DNA of 64,000 bases from contig NZ_CP021324.1 of NCBI RefSeq assembly GCF_002156965.1, positions 1,066,681 through 1,130,680 on the forward strand, given 5' to 3'. Both the position numbers and the translations under genes were made by a program. This document shows, piece by piece, positions 49,910 to 54,812 of this stretch. Within the stretch, counting starts at the first letter, position 1. Each line of letters starts with the position of its first letter. Below the pieces are notes generated by a model. The model was not told where the DNA came from, ran no database searches, and was given only the letters and a program-made list of their open reading frames with translations. Source of the stretch: Candidatus Nitrosomarinus catalina (GTDB taxonomy: Archaea; Thermoproteota; Nitrososphaeria; Nitrososphaerales; Nitrosopumilaceae).

Positions 49910-50880
49910 ATTTTTTTACTCCTTAATTCTTTAGCTTGTTTTGCCATATTAAAAGATGTAATCCCATGCTTTTCTAAAAGTAATGGAATTTCAGCATCAC
50001 GTGCAGATTCACCAAACATGTCCTGGGCTCCAATTCTTTTAATTGGAACAGGATAAGATTCAGAAACAGATTCTGCCACTGCTGAACCCATTCCACCAAG
50101 AATATTATGTTCTTCAGTTGTAACTATACATCCAGTTTCTCTTGCGGCCTTTTCCAAAATTTCCCCATCAATAGGCTTGATTGAAAACATATCTAAAACT
50201 CGACAAGAAATTCCATCTTCTTGTAACATCTCAGCAGCTTCTAATGCCATTCTAACAGTTATTCCACATGCAGCAATTGTACAATCAGAACCATCTCTAA
50301 CAGTTATTCCTTTACCAATTTTGAATTCTTGTGATTCTGAATGAACTAAAGGGGTTTTTGATCTTGCCATTCTCATGTAAAATGGTCCATATTCAGATGC
50401 CATCAAATTAGTTAATTTTGAAACAGCAATTGTATCAGCAGGAATAAAAACACGAAAGTTTGGAATAACCCTCATTATTGCAATGTCTTCAATTTGTTGA
50501 TGTGACCCTCCATCAGGTCCAACAGACAAACCCCCATGTGATGTAACCAATTTTACATTAAGTCCTTTTTTTCCTGGAGGTGAAGGATATGCAATGTTAT
50601 TTCTAATTTGATCAACAGCCCTTCCAGGTAAAAAAATTGCATAAGTACTTGCAAAAGAAACTTTTCCAGATACAGCCAATCCTGCGGACATTGTAACTAA
50701 ATTTGCTTCAGCAATACCAACATTGAAAAATCTATCAGGAAATTGTTTTCCAAATCCAGAAGTTTTTAATGAATCAGTTGTATCAGCTCCTAAAACAACA
50801 ACATTTGAATTTTCATGTCCAACTTGAATTAATGACTTTGAGTATTCTGAACGCATGTCAGTCATTATGGGGTCATTCAT
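49906..50880 (-). CDS. transketolase, C-terminal subunit
   Basis: Archaeal transketolases are often split; this 324-residue part has the pyrimidine-binding domain and C-terminal domain. Visible pieces are NVVVLGADTTDSLKTSGFGK, FFNVGIAEANLVTMSAGLAVSG (with the catalytic Glu of IAE), SHGGLSVGPDGGSHQQIED and VTTEEHNILGGMGSAVAE. It overlaps the upstream fused subunit by 4 nt (ATGA), so the two chains are made together. Confidence 0.94.
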   Translation of the reverse strand: MNDPIMTDMRSEYSKSLIQVGHENSNVVVLGADTTDSLKTSGFGKQFPDRFFNVGIAEANLVTMSAGLAVSGKVSFASTYAIFLPGRAVDQIRNNIAYPSPPGKKGLNVKLVTSHGGLSVGPDGGSHQQIEDIAIMRVIPNFRVFIPADTIAVSKLTNLMASEYGPFYMRMARSKTPLVHSESQEFKIGKGITVRDGSDCTIAACGITVRMALEAAEMLQEDGISCRVLDMFSIKPIDGEILEKAARETGCIVTTEEHNILGGMGSAVAESVSESYPVPIKRIGAQDMFGESARDAEIPLLLEKHGITSFNMAKQAKELRSKKI

Positions 50881-52544
50881 AGATACCCTACCTCCTTTGC
50901 AATTTTTTTAATTTCTTCTTGTTTTGCACCAATAACATGCAATCCAATCCACTTGTTCACTAAATCTGAACCACCCAATTGATTTGCTTGATCAAGTAAC
51001 ATTCGTCGCCTTGATTTTAAAACTGCATTTCTAAAATCTTTGATTGCAGCTCTAACATCTTGTTGTCCAATAATTGCACCGCCACCGACAAAAGCACGTG
51101 CACCATCTGCAAATACAGAGCCTATATTTTCAATATTTACACCTCCATCAGCCTCGATGCAGCCTGAAAAATTGTGTTCACTAAGAATAGAGTTCAATCT
51201 AGCCATTTTGGAATGAGTTTCTTCAATGTATTTTTGACCAGATTTTCCAGGAACAACAGACATGACAATTAGTTGATCCAATGTTGACAAAAATTTGTAA
51301 GACCATTCAGGTAATTCAGTATCGGGGTTTATAGCAAAACCAACACCAACTTGATTTTGTTTTAAAGTATCATGAATCTCTCCAAAACTAGACTCATCAG
51401 TTACTTCGGCATGGACTGTGACTATATCACTACCAGCATCTATGTAATCCCTCACATGTTTTACAGGATCATTTATCATAAGGTGTGTATCAAATGGAAT
51501 TACAGTTAATGGTCGAAGTTCTTTAATTTTATTATGATCAAAAGTTTTTGTCGGAACAAATTGACCGTCCATGACATCAAGATGAATTAAATCAGATCTT
51601 CCAGTTACACATCTCTTAACTTCATTTTCTAAATTAGACATATCACCTGCAATAATTGAAGGAGCAATCAAAAATTGAGAATCTAATTCAGAATTAATTA
51701 TAGGAACAACATCAGAATCCGGGGCTTTACCATGCCATTGTGGATTGTCTTCCATATGTTCCAAAGACTTTCCCTTGATAGTTCTAGAAATAATAATTGT
51801 AGGAACTCCTTTAGTTGCATTTGCTTTTGTTATTGCTGCATCAATTTGTTCAACTCTATGTCCATCAATTTCAAGAACATTCCAACCAAATGATCTCCAT
51901 TTATCACCAGTCTTCCATCGTGATGCATCTTTCCACATTTCTGTAATATCATCACTCTCTAATTTTTCATCTAATGGCATTATTTTTTCAGTGTAAGAGT
52001 CCTGTTGAATAAAATTTCTATCAAGAAAAGCAGTTAGATTATCAACTTTGTATTTTGTAGCTGTCATTGCAGCTTCCCAAACTTGGCCTTCATCAGATTC
52101 ACCATCACCAATTATCGTATAGACATGATGATCTTTAGAATCAATTTTTGCAGCAAGTGCAATTCCAACAGAATAAGATAATCCCGTACCAAGTGAGCCT
52201 CCACAAAATTCAACACCAGGACATTTCAAATCGGGATGACCTTGTAATTTACTGCCAAATTTTCGTAAAGTTTCAATTTCAGACTCAGGAAAATATCCAG
52301 CTACGGCCATATTAGAAAATAATCCAGGTGCAGCGTGACCTTTTGATAATACTAATCTATCACGATCTTCCCATTGAGGATTTTGAGGGTCAAATTTCAA
52401 ATGTTTGTTAAATAAACAACCCAAAATTTCAGCCATTGAAAATGAGCCACCTGGATGTCCAGAACCTGCAGTATTAGTTGCCTTTATTACTAATTTACGA
52501 GCTCTTAGAATATTTTTTTTAATTTGATAATAATTCAGGCCCAT
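50877..52544 (-). CDS. transketolase N-terminal subunit fused to ribulose-phosphate 3-epimerase
   Basis: One 555-residue frame with two enzymes. Residues 1-280 form the thiamine-diphosphate-binding subunit of transketolase: GSGHPGGSFSMAE near 27, RLVLSKGHAAPGL, CGGSLGTGLSYSVGIALA, the Mg/TPP motif GDGESDEGQVWEA near 146-158 and QWHGKAP. Residues 290-508 are a ribulose-phosphate 3-epimerase barrel: LIAPSIIAGD, HLDVMDGQFVPT (321-332), FDTHLM, VMSVVPGKSGQK and EADGGVN. A helical tail of about 45 residues follows. The epimerase makes xylulose 5-phosphate, the donor for transketolase. A frameshift artefact is unlikely because reading continues smoothly. Confidence 0.94.
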   Translation of the reverse strand: MGLNYYQIKKNILRARKLVIKATNTAGSGHPGGSFSMAEILGCLFNKHLKFDPQNPQWEDRDRLVLSKGHAAPGLFSNMAVAGYFPESEIETLRKFGSKLQGHPDLKCPGVEFCGGSLGTGLSYSVGIALAAKIDSKDHHVYTIIGDGESDEGQVWEAAMTATKYKVDNLTAFLDRNFIQQDSYTEKIMPLDEKLESDDITEMWKDASRWKTGDKWRSFGWNVLEIDGHRVEQIDAAITKANATKGVPTIIISRTIKGKSLEHMEDNPQWHGKAPDSDVVPIINSELDSQFLIAPSIIAGDMSNLENEVKRCVTGRSDLIHLDVMDGQFVPTKTFDHNKIKELRPLTVIPFDTHLMINDPVKHVRDYIDAGSDIVTVHAEVTDESSFGEIHDTLKQNQVGVGFAINPDTELPEWSYKFLSTLDQLIVMSVVPGKSGQKYIEETHSKMARLNSILSEHNFSGCIEADGGVNIENIGSVFADGARAFVGGGAIIGQQDVRAAIKDFRNAVLKSRRRMLLDQANQLGGSDLVNKWIGLHVIGAKQEEIKKIAKEVGYL

Positions 52545-54638: not shown

Positions 54639-54693
54639 TGAAATCAATTCAATCAGATAACATGGATATTAAAAGATTGATTGAAAAGTAGAA

Positions 54694-54812
54694 AATGCCA
54701 GCACTGTTGCTTCCCAAGAGCTCTCGCATCTTAGTAGCACAACAGCGACATCAGGTTTGACTTCTAAGTTCGGAACGGGATTAGGTCGCACCCTGACGCT
54801 ATGGCCGGCTTG
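54694..54812 (-). rRNA. rrf: 5S ribosomal RNA
   Basis: On the minus strand the RNA starts AGCCGGCCATAGCG and ends near GTGCTGGC; the ends pair (GCCGGC with GCTGGC). The conserved internal segments CCGTTCCGAACTTAGAAGTC and GATGCGAGAGCTCTTGGGAA are clear. Length is about 119 nt. It stands alone with no 16S or 23S nearby; exact ends are approximate. Confidence 0.93.

Follow-up and report, generated by a model that had tools for sequence, protein, structure and literature searches.

A transketolase N-subunit and epimerase fusion with a helical C-terminal tail in Candidatus Nitrosomarinus catalina and its relatives

The window analysed in this work, a 64,000-nucleotide stretch of the Candidatus Nitrosomarinus catalina genome (contig NZ_CP021324.1), carries on its minus strand one frame of 555 residues, running from an ATG at 52544 to a TGA at 50877 with no stops inside. 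From N- to C-terminus, it encodes a transketolase N-subunit, a short linker, a ribulose-phosphate 3-epimerase and a 50-residue helical tail (Table 1). A single frame of this kind, with the main motifs of both enzymes and a helical tail, had been claimed by an earlier sequence-only reading of this DNA, and is borne out by the frame itself, the Pfam matches, the catalytic residues and the predicted helices. The genes of the transketolase C-subunit (tkC) and transaldolase (tal), described in the same reading as overlapping and as completing the operon, follow downstream, each sharing four bases (ATGA) with the gene preceding it. When aligned with the transaldolase of Thermoplasma acidophilum, the latter gene's product has E57 and F129, i.e., residues of the transaldolase and not of the fructose-6-phosphate aldolase type (E. 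coli FSA carries Gln and Tyr where transaldolases have Glu and Phe); the NCBIfam model whose cut-off it passes is TIGR00875, named fructose-6-phosphate aldolase. Elsewhere in the window, at about 54690-54800 of the minus strand, a candidate 5S ribosomal RNA gene was read by eye.

Table 1. Features of the fusion locus (window coordinates) and of the opposite-order fusion found in a distant family.
Feature	Position	Strand	Basis
Fused gene tkN + rpe + tail, 555 aa	50877..52544, stop codon included	(-)	Frame and Pfam
Transketolase N-subunit domain (thiamine diphosphate-binding), residues 12-280	51705..52511	(-)	Pfam PF00456 E 5.9e-50; 6yak
Loop, residues 184-212, about 18 extra residues compared with 6yak	51909..51995	(-)	Alignment gap; low model confidence
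Linker, residues 281-291	51672..51704	(-)	Between both domain matches; dN/dS ~0.09
Ribulose-phosphate 3-epimerase domain, residues 292-505	51030..51671	(-)	Pfam PF00834 E 3.4e-49; 1rpx; 2fli
C-terminal tail after epimerase domain, residues 506-555	50880..51029	(-)	Predicted helices; length comparison
Transketolase C-subunit (Pyr and C-terminal domains), 324 aa	49906..50880	(-)	ATGA overlap with fusion gene
Transaldolase, small TalC/MipB type, 221 aa	49244..49909	(-)	ATGA overlap with tkC
Opposite-order RPE-TKN fusion, family f5	L118:3096-4715 (G321), L119:2684-4297 (G328)		

The transketolase half scores 170.6 bits with PF00456 (Transketolase_N; curated cut-off 22), and its active-site residues are all there: H30, H70, H103 and H271, D147 and E149 of the GDGE motif, and N177. 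The thiamine diphosphate/metal motif GDG...N and the active-site histidines are invariant in 54 fused proteins. Its closest solved relative, over nearly the whole length (E 1.5e-73), is 6yak, the N-component of a split-chain transketolase, which is also the top structural match of the modelled half, with 45% identity. That split-gene enzyme is an active alpha2beta2 heterotetramer with a separate C-subunit, as in the window; unlike the window protein, it comes without any epimerase, and its counterpart of the 184-212 loop is shorter by about 18 residues. In the AlphaFold2 model of the fusion chain, computed without the C-subunit, the active-site loops have low confidence (pLDDT below 50 at residues 177-210), as expected because that subunit is absent, and this is no proof of assembly. 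The 184-212 loop adjoins the thiamine diphosphate site and has many positions invariant within the window's own family (f1), e.g., MPLD 189-192, W204 and RW 209-210, and one f1 genus (L127) appears to be without part of it. Residue 263 (window 51756-51758) is His in 54/54 fused proteins and Phe in nearly all unfused transketolase N-subunits, and may be tied to the fusion or merely to ancestry.

Some further transketolase N-subunits were seen on the way. One f1 genome that carries the fusion also has a second, unfused N-subunit of 42% identity (G299:C32:11302-11994). Three other N-subunit frames (L124:2975-4189, L125:3057-4256 and L126:1936-3021) have 116-173 residues upstream, with a common pattern (...LSTLKLNAKILRELGLI...) resembling a winged-helix DNA-binding domain. 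Epimerase identity was rejected for these extensions, which gave no Pfam family above cut-off; they could be a regulator fused to the transketolase subunit, or simply open sequence lying upstream of it.

The epimerase half, the only epimerase copy in the genome, scores 167.4 bits with PF00834 (curated cut-off 21.1; match over residues 293-492), and its metal ligands and catalytic acids (H321, D323, H354 and D466) are there and invariant in the 54 fused proteins. Both halves therefore have the catalytic residues whose loss from either one would, according to the sequence-only reading, have told against it. Among solved structures the best relatives are plant, cyanobacterial and bacterial epimerases (1rpx, E 3.3e-41; structural match 2fli, target TM 0.91). 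The stand-alone enzymes 1rpx, 2fli and 3ovr have the fold and the metal and catalytic residues in common with the window domain, which differs from them in that it makes up the C-terminal portion of a transketolase subunit and carries 50 further residues as a tail. The whole protein reaches 183.1 bits with the subfamily model NF004076 (cut-off 165) and 177.8 bits with the equivalog model TIGR01163, below the cut-off of 212.6, so that the substrate specificity of the epimerase is judged from context and residues.

The tail is predicted as a helix (497-534) prolonging the last epimerase helix and a second helix at 541-552, with pLDDT mostly 89-95 and a dip to 73 at 531-540. It measures 48-50 residues in 21/21 f1 proteins and 39-49 in 33/33 proteins of f3, the second family of the order, as opposed to 5-15 residues after the domain in unfused epimerases (n=28; two f2 outliers, of 19 and 29 residues, are of low complexity); that is, a tail in 54/54 fused proteins and in 0/28 separate epimerases. 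Within f1, all 38 aligned sequences have G524, W532, H536 and G539. Searches with the tail gave nothing in Pfam and nothing significant in the PDB, and the f1 and f3 tails resemble each other weakly (local profile E 0.0005, over a stretch to which the last epimerase helix also belongs; global probability 5%), so common descent of the two is plausible. Values of dN/dS, which are rough given that dS is near saturation, are 0.05 for the transketolase domain, 0.10 for the epimerase, about 0.09 for the linker and about 0.15 for the tail; purifying selection acts on every part of the protein, and the tail is constrained more weakly than the two domains. As to its role, our guess would be docking to the C-subunit or help in oligomerisation.

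The sequence-only reading had proposed looking for the same fusion in other Nitrososphaerota. In 398 genomes of the phylum, a near full-length frame was found without internal stops in 63/63 f1 and 6/6 f3 genomes; f2 (4 genomes) and f4 (1) have tkN and rpe as separate genes. The distribution is the same in a larger set of 400 genomes from the order, where 15 f1 genomes, mostly incomplete assemblies, lack a match. Named loci belong to Nitrosopumilus, Nitrosarchaeum, Nitrosotenuis, Nitrosopelagicus and other thaumarchaeotes. What looked like fusions in f4 (G478 and G506) and f72 was rejected, being adjacent genes which the search had joined across stop codons. The fusion as such is already known: cluster 341.1, described in 2024 and present in 73 of 98 Thaumarchaeota assemblies (PMC11237513, mSystems), has the same domains, in the same order and archaeal group, and the window protein answers to its definition, i.e., the Tkt N-terminal part upstream of Rpe in one frame. 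The passage of that paper dealing with the cluster mentions neither the tail, the unfused precursor operon nor a fusion of opposite order, and we found no earlier mention there of the tail's restriction to fused proteins. What is added here, modest but checkable, is a probable single origin from a tkN-rpe-tkC operon, the tail that goes with the fusion, and the opposite-order fusion.

The gene order tkN-rpe-tkC occurs in f2, f4, f59, f67 and f72, mostly with tal next where the locus is long enough, and separate adjacent tkN-rpe-tkC-tal genes are probably the ancestral state. Loss of the tkN stop and restoration of the frame in such an operon would give the fusion. Fused proteins fall on one side of a branch both in the tree of the transketolase N-domain (TKN; support 100/99) and in that of the epimerase (support 100/96, with long-branch rows left out and f3 thinned); a quick epimerase tree with more rows leaves f1 and f3 unresolved. 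The simplest reading of these trees, subject to their rooting, is a single fusion that predates the split of f1 and f3, along with which the helical tail would have been gained.

The two domains have met in another way in the distant family f5, two genomes of which (G321 and G328) have a frame of 537-539 residues with the epimerase first (9-212) and the transketolase N-domain second (265-514), both with strong Pfam matches, followed by tkC and tal. It has no tail; SDGE replaces GDGE in its transketolase half and Ala replaces Ser296 in its epimerase half. In the tree, its TKN domain groups with unfused ones and not within the f1/f3 clade, and apparently this was an independent event. Such a fusion is rare, being found in G321 only among 60 f5 genomes sampled (G328 is outside that sample).

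Ribose-5-phosphate isomerase, claimed absent by the sequence-only reading, is indeed absent from the operon, but the genome does encode RpiA, 57 kb beyond the window, which makes the non-oxidative pentose phosphate pathway complete. The pathway is ubiquitous in marine ammonia-oxidising archaea (PMC7265257), in agreement with the one deduced here. The same reading had the epimerase hand xylulose 5-phosphate over to transketolase, and this is probably the wrong way round. Glucose-6-phosphate dehydrogenase was looked for in the genome and not found, and 6-phospho-3-hexuloisomerase (HxlB) gave no match over cut-off, weaker matches being present in all control genomes as well. An autotrophic life style is characteristic of this archaeal group, and with such an enzyme inventory xylulose 5-phosphate should be a product of transketolase and a substrate of the epimerase, even if the reactions are reversible. 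The transketolase half would assemble with the C-subunit, which has its own gene, probably into an alpha2beta2 complex as in 6yak, and would use fructose 6-phosphate and sedoheptulose 7-phosphate to make xylulose 5-phosphate; the attached epimerase, a normal TIM-barrel enzyme and the organism's only one, would turn it into ribulose 5-phosphate, and RpiA would convert this to ribose 5-phosphate. Fusion protein, C-subunit, transaldolase and RpiA would then form a full non-oxidative pathway run towards pentose synthesis, opposite to the way textbooks draw it. The benefit of the fusion, we infer, would lie in fixed stoichiometry and proximity, rather than in true channelling.

That an assembly or annotation artefact joined two genes is a reading in favour of which nothing was found, and which we rule out with near certainty, as the same frame without internal stops recurs in more than 60 genomes, many of them single-contig; its retention at 60-98% identity across these genomes also means that the frame is not due to chance. 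The joining of the two enzymes is real, old and intact. Whether a separate epimerase is also made, by initiation inside the frame at residue 292, is another matter. This codon, just before the conserved epimerase IAPSI, is ATG in 98/118 f1 and 12/33 f3 loci; the window has TTG here, itself a possible start codon. Yet Shine-Dalgarno-like 4-mers lie upstream in just 1/118 f1 loci (14/33 in f3), the codon is a non-start one in several members, and the linker is under purifying selection, all of which leaves internal initiation a real but weak alternative, and a relic start codon, very improbable as a working one.

A further question is what the fusion does, if anything. It might be a neutral accident of a tight operon, with no effect beyond equal expression: the genes were already adjacent in the probable ancestral operon, so that a frameshift or a small deletion would be enough to join them, and unfused relatives keep the pathway. 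However, every sampled f1 and f3 genome has kept the fusion, with low dN/dS, and a second one of opposite order suggests some value of proximity, and we hold mere accident to be less likely than not. At the other extreme, xylulose 5-phosphate could pass directly from one active site to the other, the tail serving to dock the epimerase on the C-subunit, and the shared intermediate, the confinement of the tail to fused proteins and the apparently independent f5 fusion, again with tkC and tal next to it, would all fit. The last of these makes channelling somewhat more attractive. Nevertheless, fusions of co-encoded neighbouring enzymes are common even where nothing is channelled, the f5 protein has no tail, and tail and fusion were seemingly gained together in one lineage, which reduces their co-occurrence to a single event; we therefore regard channelling as unlikely. 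Similarly improbable, in our estimate, is the bolder proposal that at least two independent fusions of opposite order arose in one phylum owing to a working complex of the two enzymes, in which the tail of the ammonia oxidisers docks the epimerase and xylulose 5-phosphate is handed over.

The explanation we hold with considerable confidence is that of a split-chain transketolase N-subunit joined to the sole epimerase of the organism, working in the pentose-making direction, by a single fusion which came with the gain of a tail. In the ocean, ammonia-oxidising archaea rank among the most abundant microbes, and the route by which they synthesise pentoses matters for their carbon economy. In these archaea the fusion is the mark of a complete non-oxidative pentose phosphate pathway of the bacterial type, and the opposite-order fusion, together with the fusion-specific tail, offers a simple, testable handle on whether both enzymes act as a complex.
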